Shown piece after piece: positions 37,616 through 49,650 of a stretch of DNA of 64,000 nucleotides; position 1 is the stretch's first letter; each line of letters opens with the position of its first letter. The notes under the pieces were generated by a model. That model did not search any database. It worked only from the letters and a program-made list of their open reading frames with translations, and was not told the origin of the DNA. Made by a program: the position numbers and the translations under genes. This stretch comes from Heliocybe sulcata (taxonomy: Eukaryota; Basidiomycota; Agaricomycetes; Gloeophyllales; Gloeophyllaceae), in assembly GCA_004369045.1 (NCBI GenBank), contig ML213505.1, forward strand, positions 1,299,849 through 1,363,848, given 5' to 3'.

Positions 37616-39936
37616 TCAGACAGCTATGACAATATCTTCCACGCTCCCCTTCTTCGATGCGCAGCCCTTCTCATCCACCCCCTCCACCTCGCTCTTCTCA
37701 TAGTCGATGTCGATATTCCGGATCGGCCCTTGGAACCAGTGCACTCCCCCATAACGAGGGAAGTAGTAGTAAACAAGGCACAAGAACAGCGTCCCCCCCA
37801 GGACGACGATGCCGTAGTTCATGTCCTGGAAAGGCGGATTCGGGTCGGTGGGGAACATGAATATGACGAAGCAGAACGCCATCCATGAAACCGCTATGGT
37901 GGCCACTGGGCGACCCTAGGTAGACATCAGCAATATCCAGCCAGAAGAATTCAAGGTAATGGTTACAGCGAACACTTACCCAACGACCAAGGGAAAACGG
38001 GCCAGGCTTGAAGTTGTTCTCGAACACGAACCTCGAAGCGATGGGGATAGCGATTGCCAGATACTGTGCCGCAACACCAAAAGTGAACACCGCTCCTATC
38101 GCCGCGGATCCAGCGAACGACAGCAAGCCCAAAGGGAGAGCCGCGAGTGTAGCGCACCAAACGCAGTTGACTGGGGTACACGTATAGCCGTTGACGCGGT
38201 AGAGGAAACGAGAGAACGGGAGGGCACCGTCACGGGAGAATGCGAATATCTGGCGAGAGGCCACTGTAACCTGTTGGTAGTCGTAAGAACAGCGGCAAAC
38301 GCTATTGGTAAGTGTCGCCCACACAGCTGACTGCGGTTATGAACCTGCCAGAACGGTAAGAACGAACAGTCGCAGACGCATACACGGCTTACTGGAAAAT
38401 GATTACAATTGCCCATATCGCCAGGGTTCCTTTCTGCCCGAAGCTGTTGTAAAAGATCTGAATGTGGAATTGTCATTGTAAGTATCCAAGAAAGTGGGAT
38501 TGATGCTTCTATGACCACTGACCGCCGCTAGAGGCTGACCGATGGGACTCGTAAGGATACTTTCCACGTCCGTCCCCATACAGAACGCTAGCGCGATGAG
38601 CACACCTTTCGCGAACAGCGGAATAAATACGAATGCGACTGCATAGTGTAACGGAAAGACGTACCCCACCCAAGAACTCCCGATACCATATTCGCGGAAA
38701 TGATAGCCCACGGTAGGGCCACGCTGGCGTTTGAAGCTTCCTCACTTATATGCACGACGCAATCGAAGCAGCCTGGTCATTTCAGCACCCGGCCCTTGCT
38801 CACAGCGAGCATATGTACTCACTAATTGTCCAGAGAGGCGCCAGGAAACTGAGCGTGAATGCAAATCCCGCGGGCCATGCGGTGACTAACGAATGCCAAT
38901 CAATACAAAGACAACGGAATACAATTCCTAGACGGACGGTTCTGGAAATGGGCAAAGGTAAACTTTGCATTATTCATGAACTGCTTCGGAGTGGCGGAAG
39001 GCAAGGCAATGATTATGCACAAAATCATCCTGCATATACAATCAGAAATAAGGCCATAGTTTTGTCAGAACAGCCTACAGCATATTTGTGACGGCATATG
39101 GTTTTTGAAGCCGAGCAATCACTCGAGTCGCCGAACTGCAGAGGAGCGCTTGGGCGAGCAAGAGCGCGGCAAAGCAACCGCTGCGGGGGTAAGAACAAAC
39201 ACAATCAGTGCGTGGAGTGTGGTGCGTACAAGATATGTCCATTCGTTGGGATGAAAGCAAGGTTTGAGCCCATACTAGCCGCAGCCATTACTTGGATAGC
39301 TGCTCCCCATGTTGTCGAAGCCACGCCAGCAATGCTACTGATAGTGTTTGAATCTAGAGAAATGTTGAACCCGTCGGATAGGAGAAAGGAGTGATGTCCG
39401 TTAACTCACAACCGACTAGACCAAACATTCAGCACCAAGAGGTTAGCCGAGACGCCGAGTCACTCACCGATCCAGCAGAAAAGCTTGCGCCATCGCGGGG
39501 AAGCGTAAGAGAATGTCCAGTAGTATAATCCGCCTGCGGTTGGAGCTGCAGAACCTAGCTCGGCCATCGCCAGGGACATCATAAGAAGGAACACCATGCA
39601 TATAACCCACTGTTTTCGGATTCCTGCATCAGTGCACGTCCTCTCATAGTAGTGGAACGTAGACAACGATACGTACACCCCAAATCATTGCAAAAGAGCC
39701 GCCATTGGGTAAAGTGTAGACCAGAGTAGAGCTATGGCGAAATGTAAGCAATGCACCTATTGACAGGACTGTCCCGCATAGTACGCAATTGAGGACACAA
39801 CTCCAATCCAGCTGAATCCAGCGCCAAAGAGTTCCAGTGGGGTGAAGTCTCTCTTGAACTCTTGCTTGTACCCTAGACTCTGCAAAACGGCGTCCTCGTT
39901 TTCCTCCTCAGCGGTATGCCGCTGACGTGCTGCCAT
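37616..39936 (-). CDS. Amino-acid/choline-type permease A (APC superfamily)
   Basis: Starts MAARQRHTAEEENED, followed by VLQSLGYKQEFKRDFTPLE, the cytosolic entry motif of the fungal ACT family (Uga4, Hnm1 and Bio5 type). Membrane and loop motifs include AMAELGSAAPTAGGLYYWT, AAIQVMAAASMGSNLAF, HISEEASNASVALPWAI, LIALAFCMGTDVESIL, ASRQIFAFSRDGALP and YFPRYGGVHWF. About 12 membrane segments are expected. Substrate could be GABA, choline, polyamine or other amino acids; sequence alone does not decide. The exon at 39410-39415 is only 6 nt, between introns of 52 and 56 nt, and is matched in permease B. The frame also opens upstream to 40068, but the ATG at 39936 aligns better with B. Confidence 0.88.
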
Positions 39937-40660
39937 ACCGTTCTTCCTGAGAGCAACCAGCAAGACAACGCAGGGGCTATAAGATAGCTCGCAGAGCCGC
40001 TCTGGTGGGTTGATCCACTTTTCTGACTGGCAGGAGAAGCATGATGGCAAACTATATTCAACGTCCATGGCGAAGATAAGGCTCTTCTCCCAAAGATAGC
40101 ATTTCCACCAGTCATGAGGGATTTATATGAAAAGCAGAGGCGCCATCCTATCCATTGGCCACAGAGCTCCCGAATAGAAGGCCAACACAATGAGATAGAG
40201 AACAGGTGATGTTCTGGATGATATTGGGTACATCAGCTCCATTGATAGACATCTATCTTAAACCTCACTTACACCCTTGAGAATGTCCTGCAAAGAAGCA
40301 GTCGGACGCAGTCCCTGGCCTTCACTCTAACTCGCCGGTGAGAGCGGAGTAACGCAAGGAAGTCCGTGAACTTCAGCAGCGGTATCGCGAGTTTACTCGT
40401 CATTAAAGAGCATCACCTTCAAGACAGCACAGGCCAGCTCTACGATACCAGAACTAGAGACTGGCAGTCCTTTGGAATGACATGGTGGACTCTAAATTCT
40501 GGATGTGGCACTCGGTTGCGGTTGCAGAGTAAGTAGCCGGAAGCGCGGCCCGGCACTTCCTGACGTCATCCTCGTTTGTACCACATACTGGCGCCACAGG
40601 ACGTTCCATAGCAAATCTTGTATTCTTACCACAGCCCATTTATTTCTGAATCCAATAACC
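39937..40660. other. Divergent intergenic region between permease A and IF1-like gene
   Basis: About 720 bp. A good donor (A|GTAAGT at 40529) and acceptors near 40575 and 40634 suggest a spliced leader or an upstream exon of the IF1-like gene. No other gene is recognised. Confidence 0.35.
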
Positions 40661-40999
40661 ATGTCTGGAACAACAGCACAGGTCCGTGTACAAGCCTTCT
40701 TCCAGTCCAGAAGCACAAAACTAACATAATCTCGAAAGGACGGAGCTTGGAAGTCAAAGGAGCAAGGAGAAGAGGCTCGCTACATAAACGACAAGGTATG
40801 CACATCCTCAAACCATCACAAAACCAACCTGAACACCCACCCCGACGCACAGGAACGCTCCCAGCTCGAGGCAATCCGCAAAGACCTCCAAGCATCCCAA
40901 GACAGCGCGAGCAAGCAGCAGTCTCACGACTTCGAGGGCGGACACGGCGGTCAGGAAGATCTCGAGGACCGCTACGCTACAACAAGCGGGGAACACTGA
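40661..40999 (+). CDS. Small IF1-like mitochondrial ATPase inhibitor
   Basis: Three exons (40661-40681, 40739-40795, 40853-40999) join to 74 residues starting MSGTTAQDGAWKSKEQ and continuing GEEARYINDKERSQLEAIRK. The pattern DGAW-x-x-K/RE-x4-E-x-x-Y...KE-x-x-QLE-x-(I/L)RK is that of the IATP family: a short inhibitory segment followed by a charged helix. Family members bind F1-ATPase and block ATP hydrolysis when the membrane potential falls. The C-terminus is Gly/His/Asp-rich rather than a long coiled coil. At this ATG there is no obvious mitochondrial presequence. A spliced upstream exon might supply one, as the frame is open back to an acceptor at about 40634. Both introns have good donors, and intron 1 has a CTAAC branch site. 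Confidence 0.68.
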
Positions 41000-41392
41000 A
41001 CCAAGAAATCCAGCCGAGCCCCAATGCCCGAGTGTACCTAGGTCCTGTAATTAATAGCCAAGATCCATGCTGTACGTTAAGCGATAACGATGTTGCTCTA
41101 CCCACTAGTGATAATCACATATCATAATGAATGAGGGACGTGAACCATGAATAAGAAATGACTGCAAAGACTAATAATGACAGATCAAGAGTCGGTATAA
41201 CGATGCATGGGTAGGACGGTAGGGTAATAATACGGGCACAGTTCGTTTACAGATAAAAAGGTAGAAGTAGAAAAAGACAACCAATGTCCAGCATAAAAAC
41301 TGCACGAGCAGAGTCCAATTCCTTAAAGTAGGGGAACATAGCCACAAAAGCGCAGACCAGCATTACCCCGCCCACCTCCACGCCCCCCGAAT

Positions 41393-44252
41393 TCACGACG
41401 GCACCGCAGTAATGAGAGGCTCAGGCACACCCGCCCTCCTCGCCGCACCAGAACAAAGCGGCGACGGCGGCGCCGCATTCGGCCCAACCCACGGGTCCAA
41501 ATAACTGCACGTCGCAATCGCCACATACATACTCGCACTATCCCCCGAATTCGCCCACCCATTCCCCGCATCAACCGTCGCCGTCCCACTAGCCACACTA
41601 AACGTCGCCGCCGTCAACGTCGGCACACTCCCCGTCTGCGTATAACTCGGCAACAGCGTCACCGCGCCCGCATTACTAATCGTCGGCGGCGGCCACGCCA
41701 GACTGCTCGACACACTCGCCGGAACACTCCCCGCGCCCGACCCGCCAGTCTGACTAGGCGCAAGCGGCGGCTGCCACGGCGACGTATTGCCACACACACC
41801 CGCCGCGCTCCTCGGGTCCTTCGGCATCCACCCATTCTGCAACCCCAGCTGGTAACTCCAAGCCGGCGACTCCACCTTGCCGCTAACAGTCGAGTTCCCA
41901 ATCTTCCACGTCCAGAAGAACCAATTCTGCAGCGCGTCCATGCTCGCCAGGGCAAACTGCATAATCGCCTGCTTCATCGTATCGTCCCAAGCCGGCCAGT
42001 CCGTCCACGGATCACAACTCCCCTGCGACGGCCAGTTGCCCGCAAACGTCCCATCGTACCGCGCACCAAGGTTCACACCGTTCACCCACTTGCCGCAGTC
42101 CGTGACGGCGTTGCTGAACTCCCCGGCAGCGGTCAATCCGAAAGCGGACATGCTCTCGTTGAACGAGTTCGCCCAATTGGTGCAGGGACTCTTGGCGTAG
42201 GTCGACATCGCGGCATTCGACTGGCCGTTGAAGCAGATATAAGGATGAGAGTCGAGCGTGATACGATCCGCACCAGGGAGGAACCCAGCCCACTGGGCAC
42301 GGTCGACGAACCCATCATGGTAGGAGATCATCGGGCCCTTGCCCTCACCGACGCCACTCGCCTCGCGCACAATATTGTACGCCTGGAGATAGCTAAATCC
42401 AACTGTCAGCAACACCGCCTCTCGATCTTTTCCATACTCACTATCGACTCAGGACCTCCATCCCCATAACACTCTCCTGCGGCTCATTGGTAATCCCAAA
42501 CATAACCACCACATCCTTATACTGATCCTGACTGATAAACTCCGCCAGAATCCTAATATAATCCAAGCTCCTCTGCGCATTCGCATAGCCCATCGGCCCA
42601 TTAAGCACATTGATATCGCCGAGCTTGCCAGAGTGGTTCCACCCATTCTGTGAACCGGGCAGAGCATGCAGATCGAGATTGATGCGGATCCCGTACTTCC
42701 TAGCCCATTTGATGGCCTTGAGGAAGTAGGTCCAGCACGTCTTGGCGAGGAACGGCTCGTTGTGCCGCGTCTCGATCGCCCAGTAGGGCAGCGGTATGCG
42801 CACAAAGTTCAGGCCCGCACCGGCGATTTCGGCAAAGTCTTCCTCAGTCTGAAGGTTGGACAGTCATGACTACGTCGACTCGCCACGCGCGTAAAAGGTG
42901 GACACTCACGATGAAAGTCTTGTAGTGGTCCTCCAGCTGCTGCAATCCACCGCTCGAGGTGTCAGCAGCCATGTTCGTACTGAGCGTCCATTCGTCGACA
43001 GCCGGTGTCCTTGCATTGACGTACTTCTCATACAAAGCAGGGACACTGCACGTATCCGCATACAGTGAGTATATATAGAGGATATTAATAGACTGTATGC
43101 ACGTACATGAACTGTATAGGATTTGCGGATAACAAGAGATCAATGAGTGAAGCTCAACTTAGATCATAGATCAGGGGTGGGATAAGAAGAGAGAAGACGC
43201 ACAGGTTCGGTGTTTAACCATCCGCCAAGATTGACACTGGAGATTCACTTCCGTCAGCCATCCTGTGCAACGACTATTCGCTTCGCATATACTCACCCTC
43301 GTATCTTGTCAATGCCCCAGTTGAAGGTCTCGTTGAGAGCGGGACTCCACGACTGCGGCCGGGCGCCGTTGTTGAAAGGGTCGTTTTCATCCCAATACCA
43401 GTAGCCACCAAAGGAGTTCGAGTACGTGAACGTCGATCCGTCGTCCGTCGTCACTTTACTGCCATCGCCACCCGTGACGGCCAGGTTCTTTGACCCACTG
43501 CCTCCAGAGCTGCCAGTGCTGCTCGGATTAGCAGGATCGTTACCGCCACCTCTCGTCGCGGAGTCGCTATTCGACGACTTCTTATTGGCAGTGAGGGCAA
43601 CTGGTACGGCAACCGCGATGATCACAATGATCAATCCGGCAATGGAACCAAGAATTATCCATCTTCTGCGTTTGCTAGAACGTGGCGCATTGTATAGTGC
43701 GTGCTTTTCTTCGAGATATTTCGCTCCAGGCGTGCCTGCCTGGCTCATCGGGATATTTTGCTCAGAGCCGGGGTCATCGCGGTAGCTGTACAACTGGCTG
43801 GGCTCGCGTGCGCCGGAGACAGGGGTGCCCGCGTCCCTCGTGCCATCTGGGTTGAGCGCGTAGACGGAGGAATCATTGTCGTACCCGCCCGACCCCGCGT
43901 ACGAGGGCCCGGTGTTATGCGAGGATGCATAGGAGTTGCGGGGGTTGACGCCACCCTCGTCGGCGAGGGCTGGGCCGAGGAAGCGGGGGCGCGAGGGGTC
44001 CGGGAGGTCGGGGGTGGTGGATTCGGGGGAGTGGTAGGAAAGAGAACGGCCCTGCGGGAAGCGAGGGTCTTCGTCGTAGTTGACGTCGAGATGTGAGTCT
44101 GGGACGTTGGGGAGCGGGTCGTAGGCAACGTTTTGGCCGGGCCCGGCGCTGTGCGAGGACGCCATGCTTGTCCGGTTGTCCTCTGCGGGGGTTACGGTGA
44201 CTGTCGGGGGCGGAGACGAGGGGCTGGAAAGATCCTGTGATAGGCGCGACAT
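41393..44252 (-). CDS. Membrane-anchored GH5 exo-1,3-beta-glucanase
   Basis: A type II membrane protein: about 200 cytosolic Ser/Pro-rich residues, a basic stop-transfer (SSKRRRW) and membrane segment WIILGSIAGLIIVIIAVAV, a Ser/Gly linker, then the GH5 barrel. Family motifs are IRGVNLGGWLNTEPFIVPAL, EEDFAEIAGAGLNFVRIPL, NLDLHALPGSQNGWNHSG, the acid/base Glu in FGITNEPQ, and the nucleophile Glu in AAGEFSNAV. LQNWFFWTWKIG and QLGLQNGWMPKDPR close the domain. It matches fungal ExgD-type enzymes that trim beta-1,3-glucan at the plasma membrane. A Thr/Ser-rich tail of about 130 residues follows. The exon at 43107-43111 has only 5 nt; it is required to rebuild EPFIVP. The start at 44252 gives the full cytosolic region. 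Confidence 0.93.
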
Positions 44253-47200
44253 GATTTTTGTGGGTTAGTATGAGTGTAGAAAGAGGGGGGACACGGATCC
44301 ACCGCGCAAACGGTTGGATGGATGAGGAGATATAAGTGACAGAAAATACTTACGGCTGGAAGGAATGTCCGGCAAGTGAATGGAACGAAGCCTAAAGGGA
44401 TGGCAAACTGCCTGGGTGAAAGACAAGAGACCAGTGAAGAGCGTCTTTCTTTAGTCGGACATTGTGCACGGCCACCCCCTATTCGGCACTTCTCGGCACT
44501 CTCCAGTTTACGGTGCGTCTTCTGCCGCTTCCACCACCGCCTTCGCTGCATTGCCTATTGCCGATTATTCCTCTAAATACTACAGTAATTCTGCCGCCGT
44601 TTACGACACCCAGAAGGCTATTCCGTCGCCGTCTGCGAACCTCATGCTTGAATGAATCATCTGACCGATGCGCGCCAAAAGGCAGGTTGCTTGCTTACTG
44701 AACGTGTAGTCGCGATGGCGATCTCTGACCGCGTCATGTCTCTACGTTCCTGGCACCGCTTCGCTTAGCCGGATCTTTGAACTCGTACCGACACTAGTAC
44801 TCCCTGTTCCTCGCAGTAGGCGCTTCCGCTCTCTGTGCCTTCTGAACTCTGGCTTCAGCATCGCGAAATGACAAACGTCTCGTGTCGCACCTCTGCTAAT
44901 TCTCTAAAAGGACCCTCTGTGCCATGTAAACTCTGTTTATGGCACCGTAGATCCAAATGTCCCGCATATTCGACGCGTGCTTCCTAATACACCTTCTAGC
45001 GTCGTGTTCGGATAGACAGGGTGGTCGACATGTTTAATTGACAAAGTCCACGGGCCACTGCGATCTTGCCTATCATTGTTACCGGATACTGCGATCATCT
45101 TATGTACGCTAATATCGCGCTCACTAGCTCGGAGCGCCTATGCTCTTCCGCTTCCACGGCGATGACAACCAACATTAACCCAATCATCCCATGTACGTAC
45201 TCTCGCCCAGGCAAACACCGCTATTCGGAATGCTGATTTCCGACCATATCGTCGTTCATTCATAGGATAAACGCAGACTCAGAGCATCGATTGGAAGGCT
45301 TTGTCACAAGATCATTCCCTACATATCGCATACAATGTGCGGGTGACAACTGCGCGGAACAATTCGATGGACGCTCTGGACAACACCTGCATAAGCCGCG
45401 AGACAAGGCTAGAGGTGTTCATCGTCAAGCAAGGGTCACCCGTCTTAGTGCCAATTTCACAGTAGGCCATGACATTCCGCGTCCATCTGATCCAGGCCGC
45501 ACATCTCTACACTCCGGCGTTCCGACAGCATCGGACGTAACGGCCCACGTACCCACAATCCGACTAGTCGAATCCAGACCGAGGATTTTAAAGGACGAGC
45601 CAGGTATGTGGTTAGCCCCGGACATCCAGGGCCAACCTCACACTTCTGGGCCACGCTTGCAGATCACCATCATCATGTGCTATGTGCCACACATCAGTAG
45701 GCGCTCGCGCATCAAAATATGGGCGCTTGTGGTGAAGTCCGTATCTCCTGCTTGCGAGGCTGAAGAGGACCTGAAGGTTTAAACCTTTATACTCTAGATA
45801 TTCTCCGCGCGGGTTTCTGTGTTCTTTCAGTTTGCCAGCAGAGCATGCTCCGCAGATGCGCAGGCGCAAATGGCGCAAACTGTGTGATTTGCCACGTGCA
45901 TCTGTTGAGCATAGTCGCTGGTGTACCTCCACCTTGGGTCCAGGGCGCCCAGAAGTCGGGTCGCCATGTTGGACCTATTAACGAGGCGATCCGTTCTCTA
46001 ATTAGGCACCCGACTGGTCCATTCCCTATATTTCCCTGAACATAGTGAGCCTGTTTCCTCTTACCCTGCGGCATATACTATGCGGAGGTGTGGATATTCC
46101 GGGAGAGATTACTCCCGTAATGTTTACACCTCCATGGAGTGCGCTGCTGTGGGGCAGATAGTCGGCATGGAGCAGTCCAGGATTCGTGGGAGAGCCTATA
46201 ATCCATCTTCAAGTGATTATCCACTGCGAGTTTCGGGCTCTTCGTTTGAGGTGCAGGGACGTGCGGTGCGAAGGTGCGAGACTCTCTGGGATGTTGGGAT
46301 GTGTGTGTTCATACTTCGCAACATCCAAGAGAGTCTGCATGAACAGATAAAACATGTTGATCCATCTGCCGATGCGACCTCTTCGAGCGGGCTGCTCCCG
46401 GTGACACTCTCACTAATGTCTCGCTCCACACATATCATCTAAGCGCTTGCCATCCCCGTTTCTTCAAGAGCAACTGACACCGTCCATCTCCGTCCGGACG
46501 CACTCCTTCTGGGAGAAACCATATTTAGCTCCTCAGAAAAAGCAATCATCCATCGACACGGGCATATCTCGCAGACTGTTGCAGATAGTGGCGTCGCCAC
46601 TATGTTTAGCAACTGTCAGTGGACTCAGGACATGCGCCTCCATCAGAGCGAGGTCCTTATCGTAGTCTTTCCAGGTATGAAGATTGGCGCGCAATGTCGA
46701 GCTGCATCGTTCCACCGGAGCAGACGAGCGAGAGGGTTTGTTTGTGGGACTGCCGCAATAGGCCTAGGGACTCGGGACGGGTGGGTCCGTCCTCTTCCTT
46801 TCTTCCATTGCCCCGTTCGCCTTATCTCCTCTGTAAACGATGCACTTTGCAGGTCATTTTTGAGGCGCTAGAGCTTCTCACCGTATCACTCGGTGAACCG
46901 CCGTTGCGACGGGTATATAGGGCTTACACCGCCTACGATATCCTGAGGTCCCACCACCGCCTGCTCCTCGATGAATTCATCCAGCTTTCCAGGATGATAT
47001 TTGGACTCCGGACGCACTACCGTGCAATCCGGTACCGGACCGCAGGAAGAGAAGCCTGGTATTTAGAGTTCTGACTTCCAGAACCCGGTAGATGGCAGGG
47101 ATTCTATCCTTGCAATCAGTACGATTACGTCTCGGGCACCCGACGATGGCTACGCTGGCCCTGGGTTCAGGTGCTCGTATCGGGACCTTACTATCTCCTT

Positions 47201-47306
47201 TCTCATGGCAATTACGGGATACAGGATGTTAATATGCCTAGCTGCAACTCATATCTCGAGCAGAGATTGCAAACTCCCGCTATCTTGACCCTTCGATACT
47301 TCTTCT
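44253..47306. other. Gene-poor 3-kb stretch between GH5 and permease B
   Basis: Contains the GH5 and permease B promoters. Three plus-strand frames exist: 45291-45782 (163 codons), 46080-46871 (a long frame broken by one in-frame TAA at 46440, which a possible intron from 46402 to 46443 could remove only by changing frame), and 46619-47074 (151 codons). None has a family motif that I recognise. The region may hold one rapidly evolving or decayed gene. Confidence 0.3.
46080..47074 (+). pseudogene. Possible hypothetical or decayed gene
   Basis: The frame from 46080 reads 120 codons to a TAA and resumes in the same frame for about 140 more to 46871; a second frame covers 46619-47074. Stretches such as CETLWDVGMCVFILRNIQES and RSHHRLLLDEFIQLSRMIFG look protein-like and the latter is amphipathic. 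No domain is recognised. It may be a spliced gene with introns I could not place, or a remnant. Confidence 0.2.
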
Positions 47307-49650
47307 ATGAAGACTCCTGACGAGACGGTAACCGTCCAGCCTGTTACTTTGACAGAAAATGGACGCAAGAATGGTGACGACGCACTGCTTGAGAGCTTGG
47401 GGTACAAGCAGGAATTTAAGAGGGAATTCACGCCCTTGGAGCTCTTCGGTGTCGTGTTCAGCATTCTAGGCGTTGTTCCCTCTATTGCGTACGTCGCTAT
47501 CCACCAGGATTCTGAAGAACATGACTCACTTCAGGATCATTCAGCTCTGTCTTGGTGTATGCCATTCCCAACGGCGGCCCGGTGTCCATGATATGGGGTG
47601 TATGTCATTGCACTAAGCTCTGGCCTCTTCGTTATGGAACTGATGTGCACGTATCCAGTGGGCAGTCTGCACGTTTTTCCTGTTCATGATGGCCTTGGCA
47701 ATGGCCGAACTCGGATCCGCTGCGCCGACTTCAGGGGGCTTGTACTACTGGACGTTCAAGTTCTCGTCGCCCGGTTGGCGGCACCTTTTGTGTTGGATCG
47801 GTGAGTCCTAGGTGTATTATGGTATCGATACCTCATGTCTGATCCACGCGCTTTACAGTCGGTTGTAAGTCAAGACATACTATGTTAATTTTCTCAGTCT
47901 TTTGCCGACTGATCATTCCCTGCAGATGCGAACACAATCGGGAACATCGGCGCCGTCGCATCCGTCGCATGGGGATGTGCTGTCCAGATTATGGCCGCAG
48001 CTAGTATAGGATCCAACTTGAGATTTTCTCCTACCACGGGGCAGACTTAGTGAGCTGAACTCGTCCGATTGCCAAGAGCCTGGCATTTAACAAGAAAATA
48101 TCGCAGCGGCTGTTTCTGTGCGGTTGCCTTTGTCATGGCTGTTATTTGCAGTTCCGCAACAAAAGTCATCGCGCGGCTACAAACTCCGTATACTGTACTA
48201 AATGTCTTGTGAGTCTGATCATCATCATCCATGTCGAAGTCCCGGACTGATCTCACGGCATCCTAAGAGTTATATTGGGCATAGTCATCGCCCTTCCCGC
48301 TGCCACACCGTCAGAATTCATGAACAGTGCGGAGTATGTTTTCGGGAATTTCACGAATTGTGAGTATATGCGCCCCGTACAGTTAATAATCTCAAGCGTC
48401 CGTCAGTGACTACATGGCCTTCCGGGTTCGCATTTGTTCTCAGCTTCCTGGCTCCCTTATGGACAATCGGTGGGATCTCTGGCCAAGCCATCTGTCATAT
48501 TGCTAAGATATGCATGGCTGTCTAGGTGCTTTCGACTCCTGTGTGCACATCAGTGAAGAAGCCTCGAATGCAAGCGTTGCTGTGCCATGGGCCATCGTCC
48601 TTGCTAACATGATCGCTGCTGTGCTCGGATGGGGTAAAGCCTTCGCAATTCCGTGCTCGTTTAGATCCATAACCACATTGATACGCAGGCGTCACTGTGG
48701 CAATCGTTTTCTGCATGGGGACTGATCTGGAGACTATCGTCAGTAGTCCAATTGGCCAGCCATTGGCGACAGTCAGTCTCCTCAGATCTGGTTCCTTTGA
48801 CACTATTTTGACAGGTCACTGTCAGATTTTCTTCAATAGCTTCGGTAAGAAGGGAACTCTCGTGATATGGGCTATTATAGTTGCTCTTCAGTGAGTCGAA
48901 GCAGGTTCTTTTCAGAAGAGATTACTGATAGCTATCTTACAGGTTCCTTATGGGTACAAGCATCGTAAGCTGATTCGGTCGGCGTTTGACGCATACGACC
49001 GACCTCTTGTTCTCTCAGCTAACCGTGGCTTCGCGGCAAAGCTTCGCGTTCGCTCGAGACGGAGCACTGCCCCTCTCTCGAATCCTCTATCACATCAACC
49101 CGTACACCCTTACTCCAGTCAACTGTGTATGGTTTACGACTTCTGCGGCCCTTTTGCTCGGTCTACTAGCGTTCGCTGGGTCGGCAGCCATAGGCGCTGT
49201 CTTTACGCTCTGTGTCACTGCAAACTACCTCGCCTTTTGCATACCTATCACAGCTAGATTCGCGTTCCATAACGACTTCAAGCCAGGTCCGTTCACTTTG
49301 GGACGATGGGTATGTGGCTGTTCCTACGGCAATTATAAGACTCAGCCTTACCCCGTTCACAGGGACTACCCGTCGCTGCTATTGCTGTGTCGTGGATGTG
49401 CTTTTGCATGGTGATTTTCCAGTTCCCTACGGATCCTAATCCACCCGTGGCGGACATGAACTACACTGTTGTTGTCTTGGGCGGTGTGATGACCCTCTGC
49501 CTCGTTTACTATTATTTTCCGCGGTATGGCGGAGTCCATTGGTTTGAAGGTCCCGTATCCAATCTTGAATCAGATGCACGTGGAAAGCCGGATGAAACAT
49601 CGTCGCGCAGCAGCGGCGACAGCGGAGGACAAGAGGAGAAAGGCCAGTAG
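47307..49650 (+). CDS. Amino-acid/choline-type permease B (paralog of permease A)
   Basis: Starts MKTPDETVTVQPVTL, then ALLESLGYKQEFKREFTPLE as in permease A. Further shared motifs are AMAELGSAAPTSGGLYYWT, AVQIMAAASIGSN, ICSSATKVIARLQTPYTVLN, FDSCVHISEEASNASVAVP, VFCMGTDLETIVSSPIGQP, ASRQSFAFARDGALPLSRI and YFPRYGGVHWFEGPV. About 13 exons, and the frame can be followed to the end, so it looks functional. The exon at 47859-47864 is 6 nt (TCGGTT), flanked by introns of 58 and 61 nt, in the same place as in permease A. The C-terminus is hydrophilic (EEKGQ) and differs from A. Same family as Uga4/Hnm1 (ACT family); the substrate is not predictable. It converges with VID21, about 200 bp apart. Confidence 0.88.

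Follow-up and report, generated by a model that had tools for sequence, protein, structure and literature searches.

A probable six-nucleotide coding exon at a common position in two old paralogous permease genes of Heliocybe sulcata

Very short exons have been described in fungi before. In Phanerochaete chrysosporium, the cytochrome P450 genes have a shortest exon of 6 bp and microexons that encode 2-10 amino acids (PMC1184071). This white-rot basidiomycete resembles the case described here in its small introns, its exons of down to 6 bp and the setting in a duplicated gene family; it differs in that the genes are P450s and not transporters, and the portion of that report dealing with these exons does not trace one microexon between two old paralogs (PMC1184071). 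Very short exons, down to two nucleotides, are also described as typical of the genes of Phlebia radiata, another white-rot fungus, although the relevant passage is a general genome description without a permease (PMC6540522). In Fusarium, a one-nucleotide exon has been reported for CYP621A (PMC12940212). As in our case, a tiny exon completes a conserved motif, an overlong apparent intron serves as the clue, and the exon is kept across related genes; in contrast to our case, the exon is 1 nt long, the genes compared are orthologs and not paralogs, and sequence reads stand behind the exon (PMC12940212).

Two further systems bear on how such exons are kept and how they are missed. An RNA-seq-based study of land plants defined 45 conserved microexon clusters (PMC8831610). 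These share with the present exon a size and phase fixed over long times, and they are often missed by annotation, but they come from plants and were defined with RNA-seq (PMC8831610). The Trichoderma gene Xlr2 likewise has a fungal microexon, one that the gene model had missed; it differs in being 20 nt long, in lying in a transcription factor gene and in its condition-dependent inclusion (PMC11121469). The same paper describes microexon identification in fungi as relatively limited, and functional microexons in filamentous fungi as undescribed before Xlr2 (PMC11121469). Two other papers mention microexons, in the sections that use the word, only as a read-mapping setting (PMC3990503 and PMC4014442). 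Our literature search, with most subscription journals outside its coverage, found no earlier report of a fungal micro-exon in amino-acid permeases, and its listing held nothing relevant on the present transporter family in Laccaria. The exon described below is thus a tidy example of a known phenomenon and not a surprise.

We analyzed a stretch of 64,000 nucleotides (64 kb, hereafter the window) of contig ML213505.1 of Heliocybe sulcata, which contains two permease genes. Both genes were modeled by hand from mutual homology, reading frame and GT-AG boundaries. Permease A occupies 37616-39936 on the minus strand and permease B 47307-49650 on the plus strand; each has 14 exons running from start to stop with no internal stop, and they encode 534 and 540 amino acids, respectively. 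The genes are arranged head to head and separated by about 7.4 kb (39937-47306). A tblastn search of the window with both proteins (E up to 1e-3) found no third gene copy, only these two loci.

The two gene structures match in their introns and internal exons. All 13 introns have a common position and phase, and all 12 internal exons are of equal length in A and B (55, 142, 6, 124, 102, 92, 63, 108, 83, 65, 22 and 291 nt for exons 2 to 13); exons 1 and 14 are not the same in the two genes. The modeling of each gene leaned on the other, which in part favors equal lengths, yet a separate GT and AG mark each boundary. The 6-nt exon 4 is therefore one part of a gene structure that has been conserved as a unit. 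A second small exon of conserved length, exon 12, has 22 nt in both genes (A, 38323-38344, minus strand; B, 48943-48964, plus strand), with the same phase and a different sequence. The least certain boundaries of the models include those of intron 1 of A (39732-39784, minus strand), with the unusual donor GTACTA; of intron 7 of A (38886-38937, minus strand), with the unusual donor GTCCGT; and of intron 10 of A (38458-38522, minus strand) and of B (48772-48825, plus strand), both with donor GTCAGT.

Profile comparison places both proteins among the AA_permease_2 permeases, with PF13520 scores of 205.6 bits (A) and 221.0 bits (B), which exceed the 27-bit gathering cut-off. The best NCBIfam match is TIGR00907, which aligns at full length with 407.5 bits (A) and 392.3 bits (B), below its curated cut-off of 598.3 bits. 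TIGR00907 is thus the nearest subfamily, and neither protein is a certified member, since both fall under that cut-off. We take NCBIfam TIGR00907 (subfamily 2A0304) to be what the first-pass annotation of this DNA called the 'ACT' family. With the microexon included, the TIGR00907 alignment of each gene covers 482 residues over 482 profile positions.

That annotation had proposed a 6-nt microexon, TCGGTT, in permease A with a 52-nt and a 56-nt intron beside it, and the same six bases at the matching place in permease B. Both proposals are borne out in position, strand and length. In A the hexamer lies at 39410-39415 on the minus strand, in the context tctag/TCGGTT/gtgagt; in B it lies at 47859-47864 on the plus strand, in the context ttacag/TCGGTT/gtaagt. 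In each gene it forms an internal exon, well within the 30-nt limit that defines a coding microexon, with AG before it, GT after it and GT-AG introns on both sides. It runs from phase 1 to phase 1; its first two bases complete a Val codon, the next three form a Gly codon and the last one opens a Tyr codon (I-V-G-Y). In the window, TCGGTTGTGAGT occurs once, and a search for YAGTCGGTTGTRNGT with up to two mismatches allowed returned two sites, 39404-39418 (minus strand) and 47856-47870 (plus strand), both free of mismatches; the mean expectation at this tolerance was 1.06 sites in shuffles.

The flanking introns are short, and three of the four carry a YTRAY branch-like site at a plausible distance. 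Intron 3 of A (52 nt, 39416-39467, minus strand) runs GTGAGT..TGGTCTAG with a CTAAC site 27 nt before its 3' end. Intron 4 of A (56 nt, 39354-39409, minus strand) runs GTGAGT..TTCTCTAG and has no usable site, its sole YTRAY match overlapping the donor. In B, intron 3 (58 nt, 47801-47858, plus strand) runs GTGAGT..CTTTACAG and intron 4 (61 nt, 47865-47925, plus strand) runs GTAAGT..CCCTGCAG, with CTGAT sites 16 and 13 nt before their respective 3' ends. The first-pass description of these introns as completely different between the genes holds for intron 3, whose alignment was no better than that of shuffled sequences (55 of 100 scored as high); for intron 4 the result was marginal (4 of 100).

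Six bases between an AG and a GT could be a chance match; a single longer intron would then separate exons 3 and 5, and V-G would be missing from the protein. The reading frame survives both inclusion and skipping, which leaves room for this explanation. We weighed it by two measures: (i) 20,000 dinucleotide shuffles per gene of the gap between exons 3 and 5, and (ii) the length of the implied intron. Stop-free in-frame hexamer exons of any kind arose in 4.6% (A) and 12.9% (B) of shuffles, and 20% and 51% held some in-frame exon of at most 30 nt. A bare AG-6-GT therefore means little. An in-frame AG-hexamer-GT that codes for xG[YWF] and leaves 40 nt or more on either side was found in only 20 (A) and 33 (B) of the 20,000 shuffles, and chance would have to produce it in both genes; treated as independent, the two together have a probability of the order of 10^-6. 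The exact hexamer TCGGTT appeared in 0 (A) and 5 (B) of 20,000 shuffles, and an xG[YWF] hexamer with a GTRAGT donor in none for either gene. Skipping also implies a single merged intron, 114 nt long in A and 125 nt long in B, whereas the other 22 introns measure 47-67 nt.

Family profiles bear on whether the exon is coding. Inclusion gives the product C-W-I-V-G-Y-(A/S)-N-T-I and skipping gives C-W-I-D-(A/S)-N-T-I. Keeping intron 3 in the transcript brings in stops, whether or not intron 4 is kept as well. Scored against TIGR00907, the B fragment with the microexon reached 86.1 bits, the top of eight variants, and the skipped form 72.6 bits, the bottom. Between them came Ala-Ala in place of Val-Gly (81.6 bits), removal of two upstream residues (77.7), Asp-Leu-Asp (76.3), a 3-nt exon (74.4), a 9-nt alternative (74.0) and removal of four upstream residues (73.2). 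The A fragment gave the same ranking over seven variants, from 92.1 bits on inclusion to 78.7 on skipping. At full length, skipping cost 13.5 (A) and 13.9 (B) bits against TIGR00907, a loss of about 13.5 bits in both genes that argues against a chance match. Inclusion thus supplies residues of the protein family, as judged by the best TIGR00907 score in both genes. Smaller losses on skipping were seen with TIGR03428 (3.2 bits in A, 4.2 in B) and PF13520 (3.9 in A, 4.9 in B). Other, distant families gave a mixed picture: the skipped form scored better in both genes against TIGR00911 and in B against PF00324, and TIGR00909 listed full-length B only when skipped, though it scored inclusion higher in A and in the two fragments. 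As a separate observation, the four residues before C-W-I are RKLF in A (39478-39489, minus strand) and RHLL in B (47779-47790, plus strand), and TIGR00907 scores drop when they are removed.

The same scores bear on whether another small exon fills the gap. Candidate exons of at most 60 nt (flanks of at least 40 nt) common to both genes were those of 3 nt, 6 nt and 10 nt, the last out of frame. The 3-nt candidate, TCG, uses the same acceptor in both genes, but its donor, GTTGTR, is off consensus and it falls under the 6-nt version against TIGR00907 by 10.7 (A) and 11.7 (B) bits. The in-frame 9-nt alternative is available in B only and lies 12.1 bits under the 6-nt version. We consider it scarcely credible that TCG or any other small exon in this gap is the true one.

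Bacterial relatives offered a more distant comparison. Our tblastn search found relatives in 35 plasmid records, all under 60% identity and the best at about 30%, and a prokaryote genome scan found three distant bacterial relatives. We aligned sequences from 14 of the 35 plasmid records together with the three prokaryote genome loci, 17 intronless sequences in all. Their Val column holds T in 13, A in two, V in one and M in one; the Gly column holds G in 13, A in three and S in one; and the Tyr column holds W in all 17; these columns fit the residues that the microexon encodes. The RKLF/RHLL residues are absent from all 17 as aligned. A profile of the 17 sequences favored inclusion over skipping by 2.6 bits in A and 0.1 in B, and a profile of the 14 plasmid sequences gave differences of 0.0 and -2.0 bits, so that the two forms scored about equally overall, with skipping ahead by 2 bits in one of the four runs. 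Across these runs, 32, 32, 16 and 1,168 of 3,904 stop-free hexamers matched or exceeded the score of TCGGTT. In a control with two residues deleted elsewhere in the protein, the loss equaled or exceeded that from skipping at 347, 414, 427 and 450 of 470 positions, which makes skipping a mild change by this profile and speaks for a chance match. We regard the bacterial comparison as neutral to weak support for inclusion; since this profile hardly separates the two forms, the case for inclusion rests on TIGR00907. Taking the intron lengths, the shuffles and the TIGR00907 losses together with this result, we judge a chance match very improbable. Viral contigs held no relative in a protein scan with B, a scan with the A/B alignment or a search for the donor-microexon-donor DNA pattern. 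Among solved structures there was one weak match (7ccs_B, E 2.1e-6), which was not applied to the microexon.

We next consider the age of the exon. The A and B proteins are 68.5% identical over 425 aligned codons, and fourfold-degenerate sites are identical at 38 of 147, close to the random level, which indicates that the duplication is old. Since all 13 introns are common to both genes, inheritance is likelier than independent gain in each, and on these grounds the microexon predates the A/B duplication. The first-pass annotation had reached the same date from the identity of the six bases beside dissimilar introns. The date is supported by the common position, phase and length and by the other introns, but the six-letter identity is weak evidence: fourfold degeneracy applies to two of the six positions, and among 141 windows of the same phase whose three residues are conserved, 21 are likewise identical at all six bases. 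The telling evidence is the common position, phase and length, along with those of the other introns, rather than the six letters.

How might six bases be spliced as an exon? The donors flanking the microexon are GTRAGT in four of four cases over the two genes, compared with five of 22 elsewhere in these genes (one-sided Fisher P 0.008, for a post hoc contrast in paralogs that are not independent). With such donors on both sides in both genes, no signal inside the microexon would be needed. Both short flanking introns are probably recognized independently, each across itself (intron definition), and they are likely removed stepwise, one and then the other, because two spliceosomes would hardly fit six bases apart. 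It is possible that the strong donors compensate for the tiny exon. They are no general rule for small exons here, as the donors beside the 22-nt exon are perfect in only one of four cases. Work in worms showed that microexons no longer depend on PRP-40 once the exon is lengthened or given an unusually short flanking intron, and its authors put forward, as a speculative model, PRP-40 acting as an intron bridge where exon definition is impossible (PMC8378409). A review agrees with this view (PMC8624252). We infer, by analogy with worms, that a similar picture could hold in H. sulcata.

A length divisible by three, with both forms in frame, would also suit a regulated cassette that switches between a working V-G-Y permease and an Asp form, and Trichoderma offers a precedent in its glucose-dependent 20-nt microexon switch (PMC11121469). 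Several points speak against such regulation: each of the four donors is of the best type, the skipped form has the lowest TIGR00907 score among the variants tried, and skipping puts a charged residue into a hydrophobic stretch. Nothing among the features examined here pointed to regulation. We consider alternative splicing of this kind improbable. The microexon is probably always included, and our reading of the sequence is that TCGGTT is very probably a genuine 6-nt coding exon in two old paralogous amino-acid permease genes, constitutively spliced in by intron definition. Its persistence could have two causes: (i) exact loss of either flanking intron would be rare, and (ii) skipping would swap V-G-Y for a single Asp in what is probably a membrane helix.

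We tentatively extend this reading, with more doubt than confidence, to a 6-nt microexon that sits at one position in this permease subfamily across the Agaricomycetes, arose before the paralogs split and is held in place by strong donors on both sides, with many database models of the family lacking the Val-Gly of a conserved motif. The first-pass annotation likewise considered automatic gene models of this family likely to be wrong. A and B together allow a modest test of the idea that exons with no room for internal signals depend on strong flanking donors. If the exon is kept across relatives, it would serve as a dated structural marker for the permease family. Annotation could take a warning from it as well: gene finders that impose a minimum exon length would lose two residues here with the frame intact, and no frameshift would reveal the error.
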